The translations under genes were made by a program, and so were the position numbers. The notes beneath the pieces were generated by a model. The model was not told where the DNA came from and did not search any database. It saw nothing but the letters and a program-made list of their open reading frames with translations. Positions 10,986 through 36,265 of a stretch of DNA of 36,852 nt are shown one piece after another. This stretch comes from Halomicronema sp. CCY15110 (GTDB lineage: Bacteria; Cyanobacteriota; Cyanobacteriia; Phormidesmidales; Phormidesmidaceae). The stretch's first letter is position 1; each line of letters begins with the position of its first letter. The stretch covers positions 1 through 36,852 of the forward strand of contig NZ_JACSWC010000275.1 in NCBI RefSeq assembly GCF_016888165.1, read 5' to 3'.

Positions 10986-11990
10986 TTAAGCTAAAGTTGA
11001 TGCTAAAACTTGCCGTTCAAAGGTGATACGGCCATTTAAGACGACAGGCTCATCGTCCAGATAAACCGAGCAATGGCGCATGGGAACATCCAGGTGACAA
11101 GGCGTGGAGCGCTGCCCACCACCGACTGTGTTAGGGCCAGTAGAGAAAAGAAAATTGCCCGCAAATGCTCTTCCATCCTGCCCTTCAGTTTCCCCTTTCC
11201 TGTATAGCCCCATCGCTTCCCATTGTCCGTTGTGGCTCAGTCCCCAGCCAATATGGGAAATCGCGTAAACGTCGTCGTCCTGGTACTTGGCCATAAAAGC
11301 CTTCATGTAGTCGGCATCAAACTCGCCGGAAATTTCCCGAATGAAGCCATTTTCGACTTGGAGGGTAATCGGGGACTGGATATAGGTGAAAAAGGGAAAG
11401 ATGATGTCACCGCGATCCAACACGACAGTCCCGCTGGCTCTTCTTTCATTGGGAAATGTGAAAACAAAGACCCCCGGCCATTGATCCCAATGACCCGACT
11501 CATCGGCAAAGCCGTACTGGCACATCGCTGGAAACTCGCCCAGGGGCGCATAAAAGTCGGTCCCAGCAGCAGAAGTGACATGCATGACCTTGGCTCGGGC
11601 CAAATTTTCCTTGGCTGCGATCGCTCGTTGCTTATCTTCAGCCTGCGGCAGCATCCGCTCCAGAATTTCTGGCGGTTCGAGAATCACCAGCACTCGCGTC
11701 CCCGTTGCCCGGCAGCGATGCATTCGACCATCCAAAATAAAGGCGAGATCGATGATCAAATCGGCGGCAGTTAAGAGTGGTAAAACGGCATCGGGGAGGG
11801 AGGAACGACTGGGCACCTCCACATAGCTGACCTGTGCTCCCAAAATTTCAGGCTGGCTGATGGCCACGGATTTATAGGGAGTGGAGCCGTCATAGGTGTT
11901 TAGCACCACGACGTTCTCGCCCGGTTGCACCCGGCTCAGTGTGAGCACATGCTGCCAAAGCGTCATTAGCTGTGCGGAGGTGAGGCTCAT
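10986..11990 (-). CDS. nicX: 2,5-dihydroxypyridine 5,6-dioxygenase (NicX-like, M29-fold)
   Basis: Opens the ring of 2,5-dihydroxypyridine to N-formylmaleamate using Fe(II) and O2 in aerobic nicotinate degradation. The 334 aa sequence strongly resembles NicX/Hpo: EPPEILERMLP, GTDFYAPLGEFPA, YGFADESGHWDQWP, SHIGWGL, NFLFSTGPNTVGGG and TPCHLDVPMR are family signatures. His246 (SHIGWG) and His299/Asp301 (CHLD) match the iron ligands known in Pseudomonas NicX. The start at 11990 is supported by AAGGAG ten bases upstream; a 76-residue in-frame extension overlaps nicD and is rejected. It is the last gene of the operon, 5 nt after the alpha/beta hydrolase stop. Confidence 0.88.
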   Translation of the reverse strand: MSLTSAQLMTLWQHVLTLSRVQPGENVVVLNTYDGSTPYKSVAISQPEILGAQVSYVEVPSRSSLPDAVLPLLTAADLIIDLAFILDGRMHRCRATGTRVLVILEPPEILERMLPQAEDKQRAIAAKENLARAKVMHVTSAAGTDFYAPLGEFPAMCQYGFADESGHWDQWPGVFVFTFPNERRASGTVVLDRGDIIFPFFTYIQSPITLQVENGFIREISGEFDADYMKAFMAKYQDDDVYAISHIGWGLSHNGQWEAMGLYRKGETEGQDGRAFAGNFLFSTGPNTVGGGQRSTPCHLDVPMRHCSVYLDDEPVVLNGRITFERQVLASTLA

Positions 11991-11995
11991 CGTGG

Positions 11996-12838
11996 TCAGG
12001 CTCCTTGGGTAGAGAACAGGGATAAGGGGGGCGCAACTGCTTGCCAGTGCTCTAGGGCGGCATCGACCTGGTGATAGAACAGCTTCGGTTGCTCGATGGG
12101 AATCATGTGTCCGGTATTCGGAATACAGACATAGTTTGAATGGGCTAGATGCCGATGCACCGTTGCAACAGCGTTGGGTGGCGTTAAGGTGTCTTGCTCT
12201 CCCGCGATGACCCAACAAGGTTGGGATAGCGTTGCGAGATGACGACAGACATCGAAGCCCATCACCGCCGCCATCGCATGTTTCAGGGCGGTCTGGTTAG
12301 CCGCTGCCCGCTGGTGGATGAACTGGGCAATATATGCGGGATTTTGCTCAATGAAGCGACTCGAAAAGATCGATTGACTTGCCAGTTTGGCGGTCTCTAA
12401 AGCGCCCAAGCGATCCAATGTCGCCAGGCGCTGCTGCATGTTATCGGATACCGCACGAGGGGTACAGCAAGTGGTGCAGGCTAGCACCAGGGCTGGGAAC
12501 CGCTCTGGTTGCTGAATGGCCATCTGCATGGCGATCATTCCCCCTTGGGAAAAGCCCACTAAAATCGCTTGTTCAATCCCCATCTGATCCAGGACGATTA
12601 ACCAATCCTCAGCAAACATGGGAATGCTGTATGGGCCATCGGGTTGCTCAGAGCGACCATGACCGCGAGTATCGCCCGCAATGACGCGGTAGCGATCGCC
12701 ATAGCGTAAAGAAGCCCTATCCCAAAGCTGATGATTCCAACCTAAGCCATGCAAAAACATCAGGGCAGGACCTTCCCCCGCTGTTGACACAAACAGCTTG
12801 ACTTCTCCGGTGTCAATCATTTGAGAGTGCTGATTCAC
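11996..12838 (-). CDS. Alpha/beta hydrolase, probable N-formylmaleamate deformylase by context
   Basis: The 280 aa alpha/beta-hydrolase fold protein has oxyanion region FLHGLGWNHQLW, nucleophile elbow VGFSQGG (Ser97), acid GEQDTLTPP and base NTGHMIP. The family includes NicD, which releases formate from the NicX product. Resemblance to Pseudomonas NicD is only at fold level, so the substrate is inferred from its place between a pyridine-type monooxygenase and NicX. The GTG start at 12838 overlaps the upstream stop in GTGA, suggesting translational coupling; ATG at 12820 is an alternative. A longer frame to 12928 would overlap the upstream gene by 94 nt and is unlikely. Confidence 0.75.
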   Translation of the reverse strand: MNQHSQMIDTGEVKLFVSTAGEGPALMFLHGLGWNHQLWDRASLRYGDRYRVIAGDTRGHGRSEQPDGPYSIPMFAEDWLIVLDQMGIEQAILVGFSQGGMIAMQMAIQQPERFPALVLACTTCCTPRAVSDNMQQRLATLDRLGALETAKLASQSIFSSRFIEQNPAYIAQFIHQRAAANQTALKHAMAAVMGFDVCRHLATLSQPCWVIAGEQDTLTPPNAVATVHRHLAHSNYVCIPNTGHMIPIEQPKLFYHQVDAALEHWQAVAPPLSLFSTQGA

Positions 12839-13995
12839 AATGGCTGTAGGGTGCGATGGGTCGGTTTCAGAGCGGTGCCTTTGGGGGGATGGAGGGCAGT
12901 CATCCAGATCGTCTTGCGTTTCAACCAATCGGAGCGCTGAATCAATCTAAAGACAGCGGTTCGGAGCTTGGGCGGATAGAAGGCGAGTTCTCCGTAGTAA
13001 TAAGCGACATCTTGGGTCCACTCAATCAGTCGACGTTCGTGGCGTTCCCACAAAGCCGCGCCCTGTTCAATGTCTTGAGCCTCTTCAATCCAGGTGGCTA
13101 ATGCTAACGCGGCCATCATGGAACATCCCCCACCTTGACCTAAAAAGGGTGGTTGGGCATTCACCGCATCCCCGATTAAGACCACTCGCCCGTGCCGCCA
13201 GTGGGTTAATTTGAGAATTTCAAACTGATCGCCTCGGCCTTCCTCCGGCAAGCGGTCAATAATCCAACTCAGGTGTGGAAACGTAGCTTGCCAATAGTCG
13301 TGATCGACGGGGAGCGACTGTCCCCGCTCGTCGCCTTTAACAGACGTGAGCTGAATGTAGGCCAGATCCTGAGTGCAGGGTGCATACAGGATCCGGCGCG
13401 ACCCGTGCCAGTGCTCACAATGCCCTCGCCCTTCGTCGGTTGCCAATTCATCGGGCGATCGCGCAATCATCGCCCGGTAGCCAAACTGATTCGCTAACTT
13501 TCGGCGCTTGAGCAACCCTAAAGAATCCCGCACTTGAGAATTAATGCCATCGGCACCGATGATTAAGTCACCCTTCCGGCTCCTGCCATCGGCCAGATGA
13601 ACGGTGCCATCAGGTTCTGCCGCAACGGCTTCAACGCCAAATTCGAAATCCACTCCCAGGCGGCAAGCTTCGTCATAAAAGGCATAGAGCAGGTCCGCAC
13701 GGGTGGGCACATAGAGGCGATTGTGCTGAGAGAAAAAGTCTTCGGCAAAAACGGTGCCGTCTTGATCCCGTTTTTGATGCCGCCAGGCCGGAATACTATT
13801 TTTGATCGTTTGCTCGTAAATCCCTAAAGCCTCGAGAACTTTCAGGCCGTTCTCCCAGAGGTAAATGCCCGCGCCTTGAGGACGGATGCCGGGACTTTTC
13901 TCGTAAACTGTCACGTGCCAGCCATGCTTGACAAAGGCTAATGCGGCTGACATTCCGGCAATGCCGCCACCTGCGATGTGCACCGTCCGTGGCAT
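12835..13995 (-). CDS. FAD-dependent aromatic monooxygenase, 6-hydroxynicotinate 3-monooxygenase-like role by context
   Basis: Group A flavin hydroxylase of 386 aa with all three family fingerprints: the Rossmann motif IAGGGIAGMSAAL at the N-terminus, the DG motif IIGADGINSQVRDSL, and the GD motif VVLIGDAVNAQPPFLGQGG. Such enzymes use NADH or NADPH and O2 to hydroxylate an activated ring. NicC makes 2,5-dihydroxypyridine from 6-hydroxynicotinate; HspB makes it from 6-hydroxy-3-succinoylpyridine. This gene is first in an operon with a NicX-like dioxygenase, so an equivalent reaction is inferred. The start at 13995 has GAGGAGAGG close upstream. Salicylate-type hydroxylation is an alternative. 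Confidence 0.82.
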   Translation of the reverse strand: MPRTVHIAGGGIAGMSAALAFVKHGWHVTVYEKSPGIRPQGAGIYLWENGLKVLEALGIYEQTIKNSIPAWRHQKRDQDGTVFAEDFFSQHNRLYVPTRADLLYAFYDEACRLGVDFEFGVEAVAAEPDGTVHLADGRSRKGDLIIGADGINSQVRDSLGLLKRRKLANQFGYRAMIARSPDELATDEGRGHCEHWHGSRRILYAPCTQDLAYIQLTSVKGDERGQSLPVDHDYWQATFPHLSWIIDRLPEEGRGDQFEILKLTHWRHGRVVLIGDAVNAQPPFLGQGGGCSMMAALALATWIEEAQDIEQGAALWERHERRLIEWTQDVAYYYGELAFYPPKLRTAVFRLIQRSDWLKRKTIWMTALHPPKGTALKPTHRTLQPL

Positions 13996-14072
13996 GAACC
14001 TCTCCTCGCTGTCCCTCATGGAGGTGAGTTTAGAAACAGTTCCCAGGATTTGCTGTTAAACCGGCCACACAA

Positions 14073-14990
14073 TAGACCTCTTGCAAATTAAATCGAATCA
14101 TCTGTATCAAGCGGTCTGAGCGTACTCCAGGTTGTAGAGCGCGGCAATTAGATTGCCGCGCAAGCCAAAGCGAAGGCGGCGGTTGCGATACCGCTCGGCT
14201 AAGATCCGAAAGGTCTTCAACCGCCGATTGACGTGTTCAATGCCAATCCGCTCTTTGGCTAGGGCGCGGGTATAGGCTTTGTCTTCCCGACTCAACGTTC
14301 CCCTTTGCGGTTTCTTTTTCGGCACTTCACTGTTGCCATGCAGGTGTTGAATCTCCTGATATTCTTTGTCTTGCAAACTCCGGGTATTAGGATCAAAGTG
14401 AATGCCAGAACGTCGAAACAGCTTGAAATTATGCTGACGACCTTGACCAAAGAAGGTGCAGAGGATGCGCTGGGTAGTGGCCTCAATCACGAGTTGGCAT
14501 TTGAGGGTGTGCCGTTTCTTTTTGCCGGAGTAGAAGCGCCGTTGTCACCGCTGAGGCCGCTCAATCGGGGTTTCGGTGCGTCCATCACGACCACCTCAGG
14601 GCGAGCAAAGCCTTGCCATCAGATCTTCTTGCCCGGTAAGTGGAACCGAGGGAACTGCATCAGAGCATCTTCCACCCAATGAACAATGCGACAGACGGTG
14701 GACTCATTCACTCCCCAACTGCTGGCAATGTGAAAGTAGGTGCGATACTCACGCCAGTATTCCAAAGTTAGCAACGCCCGGTCTGCGAGTTCTAGCTTGG
14801 GTTTAGCACCGGTTTGGGGACGGGGTCTCCGCAGTGGCGTTGAGGTCTCAAGGATTTCCTTGAAAGTCTTGCGTTCTACTCCGAAACGCCGCTTAAACTT
14901 CCGATTGGAGAGGGTTTGCGGGCACTGCTGCTCCTATCGATGTCAAGGGGTTGTTGAGCACTCGAATCATACTTAGCCTCAAAGAGTAGT
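14073..14990 (-). mobile_element. IS5-type insertion sequence, decayed
   Basis: A transposase remnant (14107-14960) is followed at 14073 by AGACCTCTTGCAAA, which looks like an IS5-group terminal inverted repeat. No matching copy was found at the other end near 14960-15050, so the right boundary is approximate and the element cannot move by itself. It separates the pyridine operon from the next gene. Confidence 0.55.
14107..14960 (-). pseudogene. IS5-family transposase, broken by stops and a frameshift
   Basis: Translation across frames rebuilds a DDE transposase: LSNRKFKRRFGVERKTFKEIL, LELADRALLTLEYWREYRTYF, STVCRIVHWVEDALMQFPRF, then PEVVVMD, ERPQR and YSGKKKRHTLKCQ, ending IGIEHVNRRLKTFRILAERYRN. 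Two in-frame TGA codons (near 14620 and 14555) and one frameshift (near 14580, beside the first catalytic Asp) interrupt it, and the N-terminus is also out of frame. Only the last 127 codons (14107-14490) remain open. It is dead without help from an intact copy elsewhere. Confidence 0.8.
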
Positions 14991-19128: not shown

Positions 19129-20871
19129 TTACCTGTCACCCGTCGGCAGCGTGAAGCTTGGGGTATTGGGAGACAACTGCTCCGTGTACGCCTGCCGGTA
19201 GATGTCCAGCCACGGCGCGCGATCGCCAGGGATGACGGTGTCGTTGGCTGGGTCGACCAAGGCAAGATCGAGTCGGCCGTCGCTGACGGTGATTCTTTCC
19301 AACGACGGTGTATCAATCCAGTCGTTGTCGGGGGCCAGAGAGGGCTGAATGGTGCCGATCTCGACGGCCAACGCATGACCAGCTTGCAGCGTCCAGTCCG
19401 TCGATCGCAGATCGAAGCTGGTCGTGCCGGGTTTCACTACCGCCACCTGCCGGTTGAACGCAACGGCGCTGCCATCTGGGGCGACGTCGTACAACTCGAC
19501 CATGACGTTGCCGTGGCCCTCGGTATTCAGAGACACCTGCGGCGTGCCCGTGATTCGAACGGGTTGCCCAAGTGGCTCAGACCAGATGAAGAAGCGGTTG
19601 GGAGCCTCGGTTGCGGGGTCGGCGGGCAGTCCGTCGTCCAGGTATGACCCGCCGCCGAGCGCGATGGTGGGGGAGTACTCCACCACTGGCCAGGTATCCT
19701 GGGCGCGCCAGGCACCGGTACTGTCCTGCACGACATAGGCTGGGTAGTCCACGGTCGGTTCGATGCCCTTGAGGTGCTGGTCGTAGAAGGAGATCACCTC
19801 GTCGAACCAGCCATCGCGGCCCATTTCCAGTTTCCCATCGGCAGTGCGATCGTTGCCCCGGTAATGCTCCCAAGGGCCGAGCCAGCCGCGCTGCGGCCCC
19901 TGGTGATTGGCGAGAAACTCCTCCACCGCCTCGGCTTCGGCCTTCCAATCGAGGAAGCCCTGCGTGAACAATAGCGGAGTGTCGGTGCCCTTGGCGCGCT
20001 CGGCTAGGTTACGGAACTGCCAGAACTCCGAGCCCGGGTCAGCGTCCTGGTAGCCGAGCGAGTTCAACGGTAGGCACAGCGGGTTCACCTGCTCGTAGGC
20101 GGCGTTGGTCCGGTAGCGCTCGTCATCGTCGGGCAGCTGCGGCAAGATAGCAATCTCGTTATAGGTGCGCGACACATCCACGATGGTCGAGCGGGGGACG
20201 CCGTTCGACCAGACGCTGCGGTGCAGATCCCAGATCGGCTCCTGGGCGACGACGGCTTTGAGCGCGTCCTGGTCGAGGTTGTTGCCCACTAAACCGGTGA
20301 TGGCATCGTAGGACTTGCCATACATGCCGACGGCACCCGTCGACCAGGGCTGGCTCGCGGCCCAGTCGATCGCGGCCTGCACGTCGGCCTGCTCACCGGG
20401 GCCCATAAAGTCTAGACATCCGGTGGAGCCGCCGAAGCCGCGCAGGTCGACCATAACGAAGGCGTAGCCGCGGTTGAATAGATCGGTGCCTTCGATCAGG
20501 TCGTTGAAGCGGTTCGAGGGGCCGGTGTGCGCGTGGTTTTCCAGTGCCTGTTGGCCGGAGTGCCCGAAGTACGCTCCGACCGACAGGATCACCGGCACCT
20601 GCTCGCCTGCGGCCAGTCCTTCGGGCAACAGAACGTCGGCGTGCAGTTCAACGTCGGAACCGTCTGAGGACGGAAAGTAGTGCTGCGTCCAGGCCGCGCC
20701 TTGAGGAACGCGGTCGTTCTCGGCGTACGTGACCGCTCTATCGGCGGTGGCAACCGCAGCAGTCGCGATCGCCTCTGACTGTGTCAATGCGGCAGGTGCC
20801 CCAGCGAGGACAAGCAACATCACTGCTGTGCCTGTTAATAAGCGCCTGACGTAGGTCTTGGGAACGCGCAT
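19129..20871 (-). CDS. Secreted S15-type (CocE/NonD) hydrolase, X-Pro dipeptidyl-peptidase family
   Basis: The 580 aa exported hydrolase has a signal peptide (MRVPKTYVRRLLTGTAVMLLVLAGAPAALT). The alpha/beta-hydrolase core shows VDLRGFGGSTG, nucleophile motif MYGKSYDA (Ser187), a probable acid in FTQGFLDWK and a probable base in LGPWEHYRG, as in X-Pro dipeptidyl peptidases and cocaine-esterase relatives. The C-terminal beta-sandwich includes PVRITGTPQVSLN and WTLQAGHALAVEIG. The start at 20871 has AGGAGGAG upstream; a 29-codon extension is rejected. The gene is conspicuously GC-rich compared with its neighbours, suggesting transfer, perhaps from an actinobacterium. The substrate (peptide or ester) is unknown. 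Confidence 0.82.
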   Translation of the reverse strand: MRVPKTYVRRLLTGTAVMLLVLAGAPAALTQSEAIATAAVATADRAVTYAENDRVPQGAAWTQHYFPSSDGSDVELHADVLLPEGLAAGEQVPVILSVGAYFGHSGQQALENHAHTGPSNRFNDLIEGTDLFNRGYAFVMVDLRGFGGSTGCLDFMGPGEQADVQAAIDWAASQPWSTGAVGMYGKSYDAITGLVGNNLDQDALKAVVAQEPIWDLHRSVWSNGVPRSTIVDVSRTYNEIAILPQLPDDDERYRTNAAYEQVNPLCLPLNSLGYQDADPGSEFWQFRNLAERAKGTDTPLLFTQGFLDWKAEAEAVEEFLANHQGPQRGWLGPWEHYRGNDRTADGKLEMGRDGWFDEVISFYDQHLKGIEPTVDYPAYVVQDSTGAWRAQDTWPVVEYSPTIALGGGSYLDDGLPADPATEAPNRFFIWSEPLGQPVRITGTPQVSLNTEGHGNVMVELYDVAPDGSAVAFNRQVAVVKPGTTSFDLRSTDWTLQAGHALAVEIGTIQPSLAPDNDWIDTPSLERITVSDGRLDLALVDPANDTVIPGDRAPWLDIYRQAYTEQLSPNTPSFTLPTGDR

Positions 20872-21037
20872 AATTCTCCTCCTGATGGAAGCTGTTGGTC
20901 TTGAGTCGGTCGTGAGTCGGTCACGATTTCGTGGGTTATTAGAAGAAACTTGAGACATAGTGTTTAACGCTTTAACCGTGGCGAAGATTCGAGATCACTC
21001 AACCCCTGTTCGTGCACGGTGGGCTTGAGGAGATGGC

Positions 21038-21778
21038 TCAGCCGATGAGGGCCAGCACGGCGTGAACTGTCAGGTGGGCGATCATGGCGGCCTCTAGCCC
21101 GTAGCGCCAGAATAAATACCCCGCAACCCCTGCAAACAAAGAATTTTGGATTAGCAATAACCCCACTAGGGCTGGGGTTAACGGCAGCCCCAGGGCGATC
21201 GCATAGGGCAAGTGAGCCATCGCAAACACCAGGGAGGAGACGGCAATGGCGACTACCACCCATCGAATCTGGGGTTTACCCTGGCGCTGCTGCCCAAATC
21301 GCCAGCCCAGCCATAGCAGCAGCGTCATCAGTCCCCAGCGGATCAGAATTTCTTCGGTGATACCGCCGTAGAGAAATCGCACTAGCAGCGGTGTGGGCTC
21401 AGCCGCCCCATAGGCGGGTGGCAGCAGCGGGCGAGACAGCAGGGCGATCGCCGTCAGTAGTCCGCCGCTGATCAACCCACCCACCACGCCGGGCAACAGT
21501 TGAGGAACTATAGCTTGCCGCCACGAGTGCCCAGAGGCCAAAGCCTCTGCCCCCGGTGCCATTAGCTCTAGCCGGTGAGCCAAGAGCACGCCTATCAGCA
21601 CCGCTACCGACACCAAAACCGTAGGCTGCACCAGCATCAGTAGTCTGACCACGGCGGCAGGTGGGGCACCCTCTGGGAGCAAGGGCAACGGCACCAACAC
21701 CAGGGTCATCACCCCAGCCATGCCTGCCAACCACAGCAGCCCAAACAGTCGCAGCCTAGAGTCTTTATGCTTAACCAT
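21038..21778 (-). CDS. CPBP-family intramembrane metalloprotease
   Basis: The 246 aa protein has about seven hydrophobic segments. It carries the family motifs GGITEEILIRWG (EExxxR, near residue 145), FAMAHLPY (FxxxH) and QNSLFAGVAGYLFWRYG, with a final H in IAHLTVHAV. This group (CAAX protease and bacteriocin-processing) cleaves in the membrane; in bacteria it often gives self-immunity or maturation. The start has AGAGGA nine bases upstream. A second CPBP gene follows upstream on the same strand, 40 bp away, so the two may form an operon. Confidence 0.82.
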   Translation of the reverse strand: MVKHKDSRLRLFGLLWLAGMAGVMTLVLVPLPLLPEGAPPAAVVRLLMLVQPTVLVSVAVLIGVLLAHRLELMAPGAEALASGHSWRQAIVPQLLPGVVGGLISGGLLTAIALLSRPLLPPAYGAAEPTPLLVRFLYGGITEEILIRWGLMTLLLWLGWRFGQQRQGKPQIRWVVVAIAVSSLVFAMAHLPYAIALGLPLTPALVGLLLIQNSLFAGVAGYLFWRYGLEAAMIAHLTVHAVLALIG

Positions 21779-23137: not shown

Positions 23138-24025
23138 CTAGCGAATCTGTTTCGGTGTCATGCCAGTGAGACGCTTAAACTGTTGTGTTAAATGGCTTTG
23201 GCTAGAGAAACCGACTTGTAGAGCGATGTCTGCGATCGCTAAATCTGTTTTCATCAACATCACTTTTGCTCGTTCAACGCGCTGTTGAATCACATATTGA
23301 TGGGGCGAAATTCCCATTGCTTGCTTAAACAAACTCGCAAAGTAAGTCGGGCTAATGTTCACAACACTAGCCAGTTCTGCCAAGGATAAATCTCGATTCA
23401 AGTAAGTGTGAATGTAATCGATCGCCTGCTGCAACTGGGTACGAGTAAAGCTGCTGTGGGGTGATGCGATCGATTGCGTCAGAGTCGAATAGTGTCGGAG
23501 TAAATGGATCACTAGGGCTTGAGTGAGTGATTCGACATAGAGTTGCCCCATGATCCCGCCTGATCGCAACTCAGCGAGCATCAGCATACCAATCTGATGC
23601 AGTTGCACATCCTGCTGACCGAAACCATGCACAAGCTCGAACCGATTTGAATCAATATCGGAGGCTTCGGCAACGTGTTGAACCAATTCAGGCTTTAGGC
23701 AAATGTGCAGCGGAGTGCAGATGACACCACTCTCATCTCGACACCAATAGCTCGGTTGTCCAGCCGGGACAAAAAGATTGTCCCCTTCACTAAGGATTGA
23801 TTCATGCCGGCGATCGTCCCGTTTCTGAATTAACGGGGCAGGATTGCCGATGTGTAAGTTCAGCCAATGGTCTGAGAGGGCTGAGAGTTCCACCTCAAAC
23901 GCTGAAACAGGGCTTTGACACTGCTCAACGAAAACGCCATTCCAGTTCATTCGCTGACTGGAGAACATCAGCGTTTTATTAAACTGCTGGCTGAGTTCGA
24001 GCGAGTTAAGCCGATTGCTAGTCAT
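23138..24025 (-). CDS. AraC-family transcription regulator, paralogue 1
   Basis: The 295 aa protein has an N-terminal ligand/cupin-like half (GDNLFVPAGQPSYWC near the middle) and a C-terminal AraC double helix-turn-helix (about residues 195-295): LSLAELASVVNISPTYFASLFKQ, SPHQYVIQQRVERAK and DIALQVGFSSQSHLTQQFKRLTG. It is nearly identical in the C-terminal domain to paralogues at 27371 and 35334. The start at 24025 matches the paralogues (MTSNRLNSLELSQ against MASN...) and overlaps the upstream small gene by 8 nt (ATGACTAG). The longer frame to 24040 is not favoured. Its likely binding site lies just 3', before the CPBP gene. Confidence 0.9.
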   Translation of the reverse strand: MTSNRLNSLELSQQFNKTLMFSSQRMNWNGVFVEQCQSPVSAFEVELSALSDHWLNLHIGNPAPLIQKRDDRRHESILSEGDNLFVPAGQPSYWCRDESGVICTPLHICLKPELVQHVAEASDIDSNRFELVHGFGQQDVQLHQIGMLMLAELRSGGIMGQLYVESLTQALVIHLLRHYSTLTQSIASPHSSFTRTQLQQAIDYIHTYLNRDLSLAELASVVNISPTYFASLFKQAMGISPHQYVIQQRVERAKVMLMKTDLAIADIALQVGFSSQSHLTQQFKRLTGMTPKQIR

Positions 24026-24269
24026 GAAGTTTGCTCTCACCGATTGTTCTTGTATAGGAATCCAGGGATTGTAAGTGCCGATAGACCACGGGACCGAGTC
24101 CGAGACGCGAGAGCTGCAATCCGGCTCCGTACCCGACTACGTTAGGGACGATAAGGCTCACAATGCCCTCGGGCCAGCTCAGACGTGTGAACTGATTACG
24201 TACGGGCTGAGTAGAGAACCCAGCGGTATTTTTTTCTGACTCCCGCGAATAGTTAGAAAATTTAGACAT
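24018..24269 (-). CDS. Small hypothetical protein coupled to AraC paralogue 1
   Basis: The 83 aa protein starts MSKFSNYSRESEKNTAG and includes LSWPEGIVSLIVPNVVGYGAGLQLSRLG. No family is recognised; it could be the tail of a larger enzyme. The start at 24269 is well supported by AAAGGAG nine bases upstream. Its stop overlaps the AraC start by 8 nt, so the two are likely translated together. It lies downstream of the TetR gene, 48 bp away, on the same strand. Confidence 0.5.
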   Translation of the reverse strand: MSKFSNYSRESEKNTAGFSTQPVRNQFTRLSWPEGIVSLIVPNVVGYGAGLQLSRLGLGPVVYRHLQSLDSYTRTIGESKLHD

Positions 24270-27370: not shown

Positions 27371-28258
27371 TTAGCGAATCTGCTTTGGTGTCATTCCAGT
27401 CACGCGCTTAAATTGTTGGGTTAAGTGGCTTTGACTGGAAAACCCAACTTGTAAAGCAATATCTGCGATCGCTAAATCTGTTTTCATCAACATCAATTTT
27501 GCTCGTTCTACGCGCTGTTGAATCACATACTGGTGGGGCGAGATTCCCATTTCTTGCTTAAACAAACTGGCAAAGTAAGTCGGGCTGATATTCACAACAC
27601 TAGCCAGTTCTGCTAAGGATAAATCTCGATTCAAGTAAGTGTGAATGTAATCGATCGCCTGCTGCAACTGGTTACGAGTGAAGCGGCTGTTGGGTAATGC
27701 AATCGGCTTTATTCGGGTCGAAAAGTTTCGGAGTAAATGAATTACCAGGACTTGAGTGAGTGATTCGACATAGAGTTGCCCCATCATTCCGCCTGATCGC
27801 AACTCAGCGAACAGCAGCATGCTAATCTGCTGCAGTTGCGAATCTTGCTGACCAAAACAATGCATAAACTCGAATCGATTTGAATCCATATCAGAGGCTT
27901 CAGCAACCTGTTGAATCAGTTCTGGTTTTAAGCAAATGAATAGTGGAGAGCAGGTGATACCACTTTCATCTTGACACCAGTAGCTTGGCTGTCCAGCCGG
28001 AATGAAGAGATTGTCCCCCTCATGAAGGATTGATTCATGCCGCTGATCGCCCCGTTTCTGAATTAAATGAGTAGAATTTCCTAGGTGTAGGCTGAGCCAG
28101 TGGTCTGAGAGGGCTGGGAGTTCTACCTCGTAGGTTGAAGCAGGACTTTGACACTGCTCAACCAAAATGCCATTCCAGTTCATTTGACGACTGGAGAGCA
28201 TCCATGGTTTATTGAACCGTTGGCTGAGTTTGAGCGAGTTGAGCTGGTTGCTAGCCAT
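27371..28258 (-). CDS. AraC-family transcription regulator, paralogue 2
   Basis: The 295 aa protein has the same architecture as paralogue 1: variable N-terminal sensor half (GDNLFIPAGQPSYWC) and nearly invariant C-terminal double helix-turn-helix (NISPTYFASLFKQEMG, GFSSQSHLTQQFKRVTG). The differing sensor halves and matching DNA-binding halves suggest paralogues that read different signals but share sites. The start at 28258 (MASNQLNSLKLSQ) has GGAG upstream; a TTG-initiated frame to 28294 is less likely. The 5' flank is shared with paralogue 3. Confidence 0.9.
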   Translation of the reverse strand: MASNQLNSLKLSQRFNKPWMLSSRQMNWNGILVEQCQSPASTYEVELPALSDHWLSLHLGNSTHLIQKRGDQRHESILHEGDNLFIPAGQPSYWCQDESGITCSPLFICLKPELIQQVAEASDMDSNRFEFMHCFGQQDSQLQQISMLLFAELRSGGMMGQLYVESLTQVLVIHLLRNFSTRIKPIALPNSRFTRNQLQQAIDYIHTYLNRDLSLAELASVVNISPTYFASLFKQEMGISPHQYVIQQRVERAKLMLMKTDLAIADIALQVGFSSQSHLTQQFKRVTGMTPKQIR

Positions 28259-28280
28259 AGAATTTCTCTCCACCGATATC

Positions 28281-28296
28281 TTTTGCATTTGCAAAA
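28281..28296 (-). promoter_or_regulatory. TTTTGCA palindrome in the conserved AraC leader, copy A
   Basis: TTTTGCATTTGCAAAA has 7-bp inverted arms. The same 16 bp occur upstream of paralogue 3 (36250-36265) within a flank conserved over more than 100 bp. It sits 23 bp before the start codon, a natural place for an operator or a leader hairpin. Confidence 0.45.
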
Positions 28297-33701: not shown

Positions 33702-34622
33702 CTATTGCCGATCTTCTTCCGCAGGCAATGCATCAATGGATTGCAAAATAGCGCGTGTAATTGCCTCTCGTTTATAGAGGTCGTCTAGTCGGTTTGGCGT
33801 GTCTATATTGAGAGCGAAGAACACAGGACCGGTTGGCCACTCGACCCACCCGACCCACCAGCCCCAGCGCCCTTCCCAGCCAGTTTTAGCCCGTAGAATC
33901 CAATCCCGCTCTGCTTCAACGATCATCATATCCTTGACTAATCGTTGGTGCTCAACCCTAAAGGGAAGTTCATTCTGATACAGCTTTTGTAGAAAATGAA
34001 TTTGCTCTTGTGCCGAGATTGCTAACGCTCCATCAATCCAATAAGCACCTTCGCGAGTACTTGGGTCTGCGTTGCCGTAATCAATTTGCGTCAGATACTC
34101 TCTTGCTTTCGCTTCTCCGATTTCGGCAGCAAAAATTTCGTAAACCCAAACGGCTGAATTTCGCATCGCTGAGCGCAAAGTTTGGTCTTGATTGTGTGGA
34201 GCGAAGTCCCTCTCCACTCCATCCCACTCAAAAACTTGAAATTCATCACGAACAACACCGGCATCGAGCGCAAAGAGAGAATGCGGAATCTTAAACGTTG
34301 ATGCTGGGGAATAAGCTGTATCAGCCCGTTCCTGGTCGTAGACCCACAGCTGCTGAGCACCTCCGCGCTGATCCAATACGACAATAGTTCCTTGTGCCTC
34401 AACGCGGTCGAAGAAACTAGCCCAATCCGGTCGCTCTTGCCGTTCTAAAATGTTTTGAGACCTATTATCTAAGGTAATCAAATTGCTTACATTAGGCTGC
34501 TGTGAAATCTGCGAAATATGCGGTCTATTACTAATCGATATTTTTGCTGATATAGGTGAAACTAGAAATATTCCTGTGCTGCTTGCGACTAAAGCACTAA
34601 ACAAAAGGAAACGATGGTTCAT
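33702..34622 (-). CDS. Class D (OXA-type) beta-lactamase
   Basis: Serine hydrolase that opens beta-lactam rings, exported to the periplasm. The 306 aa protein has a signal peptide (MNHRFLLFSALVASSTGIFLVS) and all class D motifs: PASTFKIPHS with nucleophile Ser108 and carboxylatable Lys111, SAV (156-158), DYGN (YGN 182-184), YWIDGAL (Trp195) and KTGW (KTG 246-248). A 45-residue linker precedes the domain, longer than in clinical OXA enzymes. The start lacks a strong Shine-Dalgarno. It converges with the RHH gene and has a 40-bp palindrome upstream. Intrinsic OXA-type enzymes do occur in environmental bacteria. Confidence 0.92.
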   Translation of the reverse strand: MNHRFLLFSALVASSTGIFLVSPISAKISISNRPHISQISQQPNVSNLITLDNRSQNILERQERPDWASFFDRVEAQGTIVVLDQRGGAQQLWVYDQERADTAYSPASTFKIPHSLFALDAGVVRDEFQVFEWDGVERDFAPHNQDQTLRSAMRNSAVWVYEIFAAEIGEAKAREYLTQIDYGNADPSTREGAYWIDGALAISAQEQIHFLQKLYQNELPFRVEHQRLVKDMMIVEAERDWILRAKTGWEGRWGWWVGWVEWPTGPVFFALNIDTPNRLDDLYKREAITRAILQSIDALPAEEDRQ

Positions 34623-34706: not shown

Positions 34707-35108
34707 TCATGGAACTATTGCAGTAACGCGGATTTCAATTCGCATCGTTGGTAGCCCAAGCGCCGCAACGCCGATTTGTGTCCAAATTGGGGCGTGATTG
34801 GGCATGTAATGGCGATATAGCCTGACCATTACCTCGTTAACTTCTGGAGGCAACCCGCCAGCATGGTAAGAATTGACATGGACAACATGCTCCCAACCCG
34901 CCCCGGCAGTTGCCAAAGTTCGCTCTACGTTGCGAAACGCCTGAGCAATCTCGTTCGCCAGCAATTCGGGAATTTGTAGATCGTCATCCCAACCGCCCTG
35001 GCCTGATGTCTCCACGCGATCGCCAATTTTGACCGCTTGCGAGTAATGCAAGTTATCCAGCATATATTTCCCATAACCGGGGGTGACAAAAAATTCGGGC
35101 TTATGCAT
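34707..35108 (-). CDS. RidA/YjgF/YER057c-family protein
   Basis: The 133 aa protein is of the RidA superfamily, whose members deaminate reactive enamines/imines formed by PLP enzymes or act as related hydrolases. The typical order is present: SQAVKIGDRVETSGQGGWD, QAFRNVERTLATAGAGWEHVV, and the C-terminal MRIEIRVTAIVP with the conserved Arg-x-x-Ile-Glu-like segment. The start is supported by AAAGGA. AraC-type element copy 6 lies 160 bp upstream and AraC paralogue 3 just beyond, so it is a likely regulon member. Confidence 0.88.
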   Translation of the reverse strand: MHKPEFFVTPGYGKYMLDNLHYSQAVKIGDRVETSGQGGWDDDLQIPELLANEIAQAFRNVERTLATAGAGWEHVVHVNSYHAGGLPPEVNEVMVRLYRHYMPNHAPIWTQIGVAALGLPTMRIEIRVTAIVP

Positions 35109-35333: not shown

Positions 35334-36227
35334 TTAACGAACTTGCTTGGGTGTCATTCCAGTGAGACGCTTGAACTGCTGTGTTAGATGGCTTTGGCTG
35401 GAGAAGCCGACTTGTAGGGCAATGTCTGCGATCGCCAAATCCGTTTTCATCAGCATCACTTTTGCTCGTTCTACCCGCTGTTGAATCACGTACTGATGGG
35501 GCGAAATTCCCATTACTTTCTTAAACAAGTTGGCAAAGTAAGTCGGGCTGATATTAACAACGCTTGCCAGTTCTGCCAAGGATAAATCTTGATTCAAATG
35601 AGCGTGGATGTAATCGATCACCTGCTGCATTTGAACATGAGTTAAGCTACCGATTCTTAACGGAATGGATCGGGCTAGGGTCGAGTAGTGTCTTAATAGA
35701 TGAATGACTAGGGCTTGAGTGAGTGATTCGACATATAATTTCCCCATCATGCCGCCAGTCTGCAACTCAGCGAACAGCAGCATGCCAATCTGATGAAGTT
35801 GCAAGTCTTGCTGACCGAAACCATGCACAAGCTCGACCTGCTTTGAATCAATGTCAGAAGATTCCGCAACGTGTTGGATGAATTCCGGTTTTATGTGAAT
35901 GTGCAGTGGGGCGCAAATGACATCACTCATATCTGGAGCTTGGCACCAATAGCTCGGTTGCCCAGCCGGAACCAAAAGGCTGTCTCCTCGGTGGAGGGTT
36001 GATTCATGCAGGCGATCGTCTCGTTTCTGAATTAAAGGGGCGAGATCTCCTGTATGAAAGTAGAACCAGTGATCGGATAGAGCAGGAAGCTCCATTTCAA
36101 ACGCTGAAGCAGGACTTTGACACTGCTCAACCAAAACGCTGTCCCAGTTCATTTGTCGACTGGAGAACATCAGCGTTTTATTCACCTGTTGGCTGAGTTC
36201 GAGCGAGTTGAGCAGGTTGCTAGCCAT
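35334..36227 (-). CDS. AraC-family transcription regulator, paralogue 3
   Basis: The 297 aa protein, like the other two, has a divergent sensor half (GDSLLVPAGQPSYWCQAPDMS, with a short local insertion relative to the others) and a conserved C-terminal double helix-turn-helix (NISPTYFANLFKKVMG, GFSSQSHLTQQFKRLTG). The start at 36227 (MASNLLNSLELSQ) matches the paralogues. Its 5' flank is nearly identical to that of paralogue 2, including TTTTGCATTTGCAAAA, showing that whole cassettes were duplicated. Probable target: the RidA gene downstream. Confidence 0.9.
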   Translation of the reverse strand: MASNLLNSLELSQQVNKTLMFSSRQMNWDSVLVEQCQSPASAFEMELPALSDHWFYFHTGDLAPLIQKRDDRLHESTLHRGDSLLVPAGQPSYWCQAPDMSDVICAPLHIHIKPEFIQHVAESSDIDSKQVELVHGFGQQDLQLHQIGMLLFAELQTGGMMGKLYVESLTQALVIHLLRHYSTLARSIPLRIGSLTHVQMQQVIDYIHAHLNQDLSLAELASVVNISPTYFANLFKKVMGISPHQYVIQQRVERAKVMLMKTDLAIADIALQVGFSSQSHLTQQFKRLTGMTPKQVR

Positions 36228-36249
36228 AGAATTTGTCTCTACCGATATT

Positions 36250-36265
36250 TTTTGCATTTGCAAAA
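36250..36265 (-). promoter_or_regulatory. TTTTGCA palindrome in the conserved AraC leader, copy B
   Basis: Identical to the 16 bp at 28281-28296 and at the same distance from the AraC start. The surrounding flank (to about 36355, ending at GCCAGCGATCGCG) is also shared with paralogue 2, so conservation may reflect recent duplication as much as function. Confidence 0.45.

Follow-up and report, generated by a model that had tools for sequence, protein, structure and literature searches.

A NicX-family operon for the probable opening of an N-heteroaromatic ring other than 2,5-dihydroxypyridine in the cyanobacterium Halomicronema sp. CCY15110

Operon organisation, replicon and second copy

The stretch of DNA analysed here (the window, 36,852 nucleotides) is one entire contig (NZ_JACSWC010000275.1; C196) of the draft genome of Halomicronema sp. 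CCY15110 (GCF_016888165.1; G000), which comprises 6.15 Mb in 443 contigs and is 99.93% complete, with a listed contamination of 0.17%. An operon of three co-directional genes was found on the minus strand from 13995 to 10986, encoding a flavin adenine dinucleotide (FAD)-dependent monooxygenase (FMO), an alpha/beta hydrolase and a NicX-like dioxygenase in that order. The stop codon of the FMO gene and the start codon of the hydrolase gene share 4 nt (GTGA), while the gap between the hydrolase and NicX-like genes is 5 nt (11995-11991); the tight three-gene operon described in the initial annotation was thus confirmed in its coordinates, overlap and spacing. The features of the locus are as follows.

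12835-13995, minus strand: FMO, 386 amino acids, of the MHPCO/MeqD/AqdB group and not NicC (Pfam FAD_binding_3, E 5.5e-21)
11996-12838, minus strand: alpha/beta hydrolase, PcaD-like, GTG start, proposed N-formyl/N-acyl amide hydrolase (Abhydrolase_1, E 1.8e-29)
10986-11990, minus strand: NicX-family Fe(II) ring-cleavage dioxygenase, 334 amino acids, of a Gln/Gln short-loop clade (against 7cn3, E 1.8e-98)
14107-14490, minus strand: transposase fragment (DDE_Tnp_4), directly upstream of the operon (Pfam E 2.1e-12, profile positions 50-141 of 158)

The family assignments originally made for the three proteins were found to lie far beyond chance, with the dioxygenase matching the solved Pseudomonas putida NicX at the E-value listed above, the FMO matching MHPCO (4h2n), its closest solved relative, at E 6.4e-64, and the hydrolase matching Abhydrolase_1. 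A promoter and terminator scan of the operon region returned no more signals than were seen in shuffled sequence, and no inverted repeats were found upstream of the operon.

The TopA protein encoded on the window contig is 69.6% identical to that of a Kovacikia minuta plasmid and 68.1% identical to that of a Gloeocapsa plasmid, and ParB is 44.2% identical to its counterpart on the same K. minuta plasmid; from these matches the contig reads as a cyanobacterial plasmid-like replicon. The presence of a NicX-family N-heteroaromatic ring-cleavage operon on a cyanobacterial replicon, as first suggested, is supported, and is rare in the phylum. A NicX match was obtained in 8 of 386 genomes sampled from the phylum (its own included) and exceeded 28% identity in G000 only, while the matches of 21-28% identity elsewhere may be M29 aminopeptidase relatives. 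The FMO was matched in 59 of 63 genomes of the family (again including its own), at 26-35% identity outside G000 except for one 40-residue match at 45%.

A second complete FMO-hydrolase-NicX operon was identified in the same genome on contig C438 (11,276 bp; L010:313-3323), which also bears MinD/ParA-type and MinE genes; directly upstream of this second operon lies an IS1-type transposase. An alignment of the two copies spans 2,982 bp (window 11032-14008) with 77% identity and covers essentially the operon alone; no further stretch of C438 aligned to the window at E 1e-3, and the regions upstream of the two operons showed no likeness with an E-value below 1. The encoded proteins are 84% (FMO), 71% (hydrolase) and 85% (NicX) identical, with ratios of non-synonymous to synonymous substitution rates (dN/dS) of 0.053, 0.136 and 0.077, respectively. 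Because these low ratios are seen at a dS of 1.2-1.8, which is near saturation, both copies are judged to be old, conserved and under purifying selection.

Iron site and substrate pocket of the dioxygenase

An AlphaFold2 model of the NicX-like protein (mean predicted local distance difference test score 88.5) matched 7cn3, the NicX of P. putida KT2440 (2,5-dihydroxypyridine 5,6-dioxygenase; NicX/Hpo/NdpE), in Foldseek with a TMq of 0.93 and 46% identity in the structural alignment, and the protein is 44-48% identical to the NicX proteins of nic-type plasmids. The iron ligands of P. putida NicX are reported to be H265, S302, H318 and D320 (PMC7910607), and all were found in the window protein as H246, S283, H299 and D301; the initial annotation had named the two histidines and the aspartate, to which S283 is added as the fourth published ligand. 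Since these four residues are conserved in 113 of 113 aligned NicX-family rows and the model matches 7cn3 so closely, the site should bind metal. Identity as an M29 aminopeptidase was rejected, as PepS matched the model with a TMq of 0.56-0.61, against 0.92-0.93 for NicX.

While the fold and the iron ligands are alike, the substrate pocket differs from that of NicX. In the P. putida enzyme E177 and H189 are described as hydrogen-bonding the ring nitrogen and oxygen of the substrate, with 2.7% of activity left in an E177A variant, 6.9% in H189A and none in the double variant or in H105A (PMC7910607). Both contacts are replaced by glutamine in the window protein (E177Q and H189Q, at Q158 and Q170), and a loop is 18 amino acids shorter than in most NicX rows. 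The glutamate/histidine (E/H) pair was present in 78 of the 80 best loci, out of 518 confirmed in a named genome collection, although these were fetched with peptide patterns covering both pocket positions, at which only Q or E (first) and Q or H (second) were permitted, and are thus not a free sample. The two other loci, from Reyranella (L037) and Rhodospirillales (L086), have two glutamines (Q/Q), which they share with the window protein, the C438 protein and a protein of genome G528 (L127). By title all 80 loci belong to other phyla, at 42-51% identity, and the window's own genome or its close kin may be missing from a search of the named collection.

Pocket residues were also read in plasmid records of Pseudomonas BYT-5, Azospirillum lipoferum, Sphingobium, Rhizobium and Peribacillus. 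The Sphingobium NdpE, which is annotated as a 2,5-dihydroxypyridine dioxygenase and sits in a nicotine/nicotinate-type cluster (PMC5343071 gives this name to a homologue), keeps the E/H pair, as does a Rhizobium homologue inside a nic-type cluster, even though both are merely 36-39% identical to the C438 protein. In the tree, seven Q/Q short-loop rows (window, C438, L037, L086, G528 L127, and L175 and L176 from the Reyranella order) formed one clade (support 100/100), inside which the window and C438 proteins are sisters. With the pocket altered in this way, the Gln/Gln short-loop clade appears to have been re-tuned, and the ring that it cleaves is probably not 2,5-dihydroxypyridine.

The position of NicX H105, one of the mobile pair L104-H105, is not histidine in the window protein, being L86 or D87 depending on gap placement. 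It is histidine in 71 of the 80 best loci, phenylalanine in 7 and without the motif in 2; it is also phenylalanine in NdpE and apparently histidine in L037 and L127. Loss of H105 was discarded as a decisive marker in view of the phenylalanine in seven loci and NdpE, despite the inactivity of the NicX H105A variant.

Two further groups of NicX-family genes were recorded. Eight rows from the class of Reyranella (L142-L146, L150, L153 and L154) have glutamine at the E177 position and histidine at the H189 position, and belong to another NicX-like clade (11 rows, 100/100). Genes annotated 'leucyl aminopeptidase' on a Rhizobium plasmid (L188:4962-5996) and a Peribacillus plasmid (L189:5001-6041) encode NicX-family proteins with an E/H pocket; the former lies in a nic-type cluster, while the latter has a 4-hydroxyphenylacetate 3-hydroxylase-like gene and one for an alpha/beta hydrolase as neighbours.

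Monooxygenase, hydrolase and comparison with nic clusters

Next to MHPCO, the FMO matched 6-hydroxynicotinate 3-monooxygenase at E 4e-18. Full-alignment identity to plasmid homologues was 42% (Terrarubrum), 39% (Variovorax) and 32% (Novosphingobium), and the protein is 33-34% identical to the FMOs encoded beside meqE and aqdC1, which we take, from gene position, to be MeqD and AqdB, compared to 23-24% for two NicC proteins. Phylogenetically, the FMOs of the window, C438 and four genomes of the Reyranella order (G446, G888, G896 and G845) formed one clade of six rows (100/100), nested in a 12-row clade (100/99) with MeqD and AqdB, while the NicC-type FMOs formed a separate clade of six rows (100/100). 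Both the identities and the separate clades rule out an orthologue of NicC. In the aqd pathway, AqdB is reported to hydroxylate 2-heptyl-4-quinolone (HHQ) to the Pseudomonas quinolone signal (PQS), AqdC to open the ring and AqdA to act as amide hydrolase (PMC5332414). The window operon would proceed by the same three steps but with another enzyme opening the ring, as the partner of its FMO is a NicX-type dioxygenase and not AqdC or MeqE.

The hydrolase scored 157.8 bits against the NCBIfam PcaD model, below the cut-off of 255.85, and showed a weak match to MeqE (30% over 113 amino acids). Its identity to two NicD proteins (N-formylmaleamate deformylase) of nic-type clusters was 19-21%, a likeness that is that of the broad alpha/beta hydrolase fold, and orthology with NicD was ruled out on this basis. 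A deformylase role is putative and suggested by operon position and fold.

The nic-type clusters on plasmids of Pseudomonas BYT-5 and Azospirillum, in which the names NicC, NicD, NicE and NicF were assigned from cluster position and annotation, have the core of FMO, hydrolase and NicX in common with the window operon. Their FMO and hydrolase, however, belong to other subfamilies, and they also cluster isomerase, amidase and molybdo-hydroxylase genes, which are not at the window operon. In outline the three window enzymes would act like NicC, NicX and NicD, with the FMO and the hydrolase drawn from other families. By three comparisons (FMO clade, hydrolase identity and pocket residues) the operon is not read as a nic operon.

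As originally reported, no candidate for NicA/NicB, NicE or NicF was noticed in the window (from the open reading frame list and Pfam matches of 20 proteins, without a targeted search). In a search of the whole genome with a protein query there was no match to maleate isomerase (NicE), while both control records were matched, one being the source of the query; a PF17645 profile search was discounted because its controls were silent. The check for maleamate amidase gave a less clear-cut outcome: the genome encodes six members of the isochorismatase family, four of which align to NicF at 24-30% identity over 162-205 amino acids, with no convincing alignment for the remaining two. One molybdo-hydroxylase was found (28% identity to the Reyranella large subunit used as query; NicA and NicB were not used as queries), and its neighbours appear by eye to be xanthine dehydrogenase genes.

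Searches of plasmid records gave no full-length match above 46% identity among the matches listed (30 of 209, 30 of 210 and 60 of 210 records). One further record, outside those listed, lay in the 60-80% identity band; a Pseudomonas BYT-1 plasmid match of 61 residues at 57.4% is perhaps the same record. A DNA search with the operon returned 6 records at 5-7% cover.

Closer counterparts were found in the order of the Reyranella genome G446, where this NicX was present in 5 of 76 genomes searched (E 1e-75 or better), namely G446 (Reyranella), G888, G896, G845 and G447 (Rhodospirillales). In the first four of these, NicX ends an operon of the order FMO-CoxM-CoxS-CoxL-amidohydrolase-NicX, whose FMO (45-46% identity) and NicX (49-50%) fall in the same clades as those of the window. 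This six-gene operon adds a molybdo-hydroxylase and an amidohydrolase, and has no alpha/beta hydrolase among its genes. The G446 amidohydrolase scores 544.7 bits against the NCBIfam model for cytosine deaminase, above the cut-off of 403, and matches a solved cytosine deaminase at E 6.8e-30; ahead of the FMO gene in this genome come ABC transporter genes, including one for an SsuA/NMT1-type binding protein. Genes for caprolactamase/hydantoinase-like CapA and CapB, which score below cut-off, are found some 5 kb upstream of the FMO operon of G446, at L185:3033-7322. In G528 the Q/Q NicX gene lies near RutB/biuret-amidohydrolase-like, RutD-like and AllG (oxamate carbamoyltransferase) genes, on an island that also has molybdo-hydroxylase, Rieske, 2-oxoglutarate-dependent and other oxygenases.

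Other genes of the window, all on the minus strand, include a transpeptidase-domain protein (33702-34622; PF00905, E 2.2e-48) that by eye is like class D beta-lactamases, and a RidA-type protein (34707-35108; PF01042, E 2.6e-26) roughly 20 kb away from the operon. Three AraC-type regulator genes that resemble one another (23138-24040, 27371-28294 and 35334-36263; the first by Pfam, the likeness by eye) are interspersed with short-chain dehydrogenase/reductase-type oxidoreductase and other genes. Genes for a Peptidase_S15 protein and an Rce1-like protease (19129-21778) have a GC content of 61-63%, compared to 51.5% for the window, and are a possible recent import.

Proposed function, candidate substrates and significance

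On balance, the three enzymes are proposed to open an N-heteroaromatic ring oxidatively in three steps, the ring probably being one other than 2,5-dihydroxypyridine. Gene order, protein families, iron ligands, pocket changes, clades, the second copy and purifying selection are read directly from the sequences, and from there we infer each reaction, the reaction order and the class of substrate: the FMO would add a hydroxyl group to an oxo- or hydroxy-substituted N-heterocycle, the NicX-family Fe(II) dioxygenase would cut the ring beside the new hydroxyl, leaving an N-formyl (or N-acyl) amide, and the alpha/beta hydrolase would take off the acyl group.

In addition to the way in which the 80 loci were fetched, several results weigh against this proposal. 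Among 29 more distant rows, which came from the 48 matching genomes in a sample of 385 from the class of Reyranella, the pocket pair was E/H in 10, Q/H in 10, Q/Q in 3 and other in 6, and two of the three Q/Q rows (L139 and L140) lie in a far clade, the third being G528 L127, at which the tree tool flags long branches. Glutamine might still hold 2,5-dihydroxypyridine, the reported NicX variants being alanine ones. In the Reyranella-type operons an amidohydrolase takes the place of the alpha/beta hydrolase, which is thus no constant partner. Nor is the FMO always found: a whole-genome search of G447, whose NicX contig begins inside CoxL, gave no window-like FMO (best 30%), and 57,452 bases of the G528 contig held no match to the window FMO at E 1e-3.

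The initial annotation had proposed that a 6-hydroxypyridine (6-hydroxynicotinate, 2-hydroxypyridine or similar) is converted to 2,5-dihydroxypyridine and, via N-formylmaleamate, to maleamate, which would here require that a non-orthologous FMO and hydrolase replace NicC and NicD. The number and types of enzymes match this route, MHPCO is named for a hydroxypyridine, the iron ligands and the identity to nic-plasmid NicX are as expected for it, and the E/H pair is not proven to be required, given that distant family members do not all have it. It was nevertheless not supported, and is considered unlikely, as the published substrate contacts are replaced by Q158/Q170, the operon has no NicC or NicD orthologue, and the search of the genome gave no maleate isomerase, nor any protein clearly close to maleamate amidase.

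Of the candidate substrates, a hydroxylated pyrimidine is the boldest. Here the FMO would 5-hydroxylate a uracil-type ring, the Gln/Gln NicX would cut 5-hydroxyuracil between C5 and C6 to N-formyloxalurate, by analogy with the NicX reaction, and the hydrolase would release oxalurate and formate. The candidate was put forward because a conversion of N-formyloxalurate to oxalurate fits the cytosine deaminase and AllG of the relatives, which do not occur in the same genome: the cytosine-deaminase-type amidohydrolase lies between the molybdo-hydroxylase and NicX genes in G446 and three genomes of its order, whereas AllG, with the RutB- and RutD-like genes, was found near the NicX of G528. For the FMOs of the window and G446, the urate hydroxylase HpxO also ranked second among the NCBIfam models, though far below its cut-off. 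Set against this, AllG was detected in 1 of 7 genomes searched (G528 alone, and not G000 or the Reyranella-order genomes), the G528 RutB and RutD scores are far below the model cut-offs, and the same 57,452 bases of G528, whose island holds other oxygenases, matched neither the Reyranella deaminase nor the FMO at E 1e-3. The closest solved FMO is, moreover, named for a pyridine, and nothing specific to pyrimidines was noticed in the window. The candidate is likewise considered unlikely for the window operon, and slightly more so is its extension to the whole Gln/Gln clade as pyrimidine-ring-cleaving dioxygenases, in which a 5-hydroxypyrimidine (e.g. 5-hydroxyuracil) made by a flavin monooxygenase would be cut to N-formyloxalurate, from which a hydrolase or amidohydrolase would yield oxalurate and then oxamate or urea.

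It is improbable that the FMO 3-hydroxylates a 4-quinolone-like compound, in the manner of AqdB forming PQS from HHQ, in an operon degrading an alkaloid or a signal such as alkylquinolones. The identity of the FMO to those beside meqE and aqdC1 and their joint 12-row clade would favour such a role, but the clusters concerned use AqdC/MeqE as ring opener, with no NicX-family gene noticed in the stretches shown, and the window hydrolase is PcaD-like with its weak, partial match to MeqE. That the genes are a decaying relic or a contaminant, functionless in this cyanobacterium, is scarcely credible: the upstream transposase fragment and the isolation of the NicX and FMO within the 386 sampled genomes and the 62 other genomes of the family might suggest it, but the two copies are intact with dN/dS of 0.05-0.14, the C438 copy lies beside MinD/ParA-type and MinE genes, and the window contig, in a genome of such low listed contamination, carries cyanobacterial TopA and ParB.

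Among the open-access papers listed (titles and abstract openings), no such operon was found in cyanobacteria and no NicX in pyrimidine breakdown. A different route, with xanthine-oxidase-like and Rieske enzymes acting on a quinoxaline, is described in PMC12746152, in the available part of which NicX is not named.

The operon joins a flavin monooxygenase with a NicX-type enzyme in both a cyanobacterium and proteobacteria, and intact iron ligands in a NicX-like protein are no sure sign of nicotinate breakdown. What is seen is likely to be a substrate switch that arose naturally within a small family of ring-cleaving dioxygenases of known structure, and centres on two testable residues. Were the pyrimidine candidate to prove true, it would be an oxidative opening of a pyrimidine by a non-heme iron enzyme, of which no report was found among those papers, and the cyanobacterium would carry the route twice, perhaps recovering nitrogen from damaged or scavenged bases. 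The genes offer a defined set for seeking an N-heterocycle pathway that has yet to be described, and the operon is a rare case of ring opening in a phototroph.

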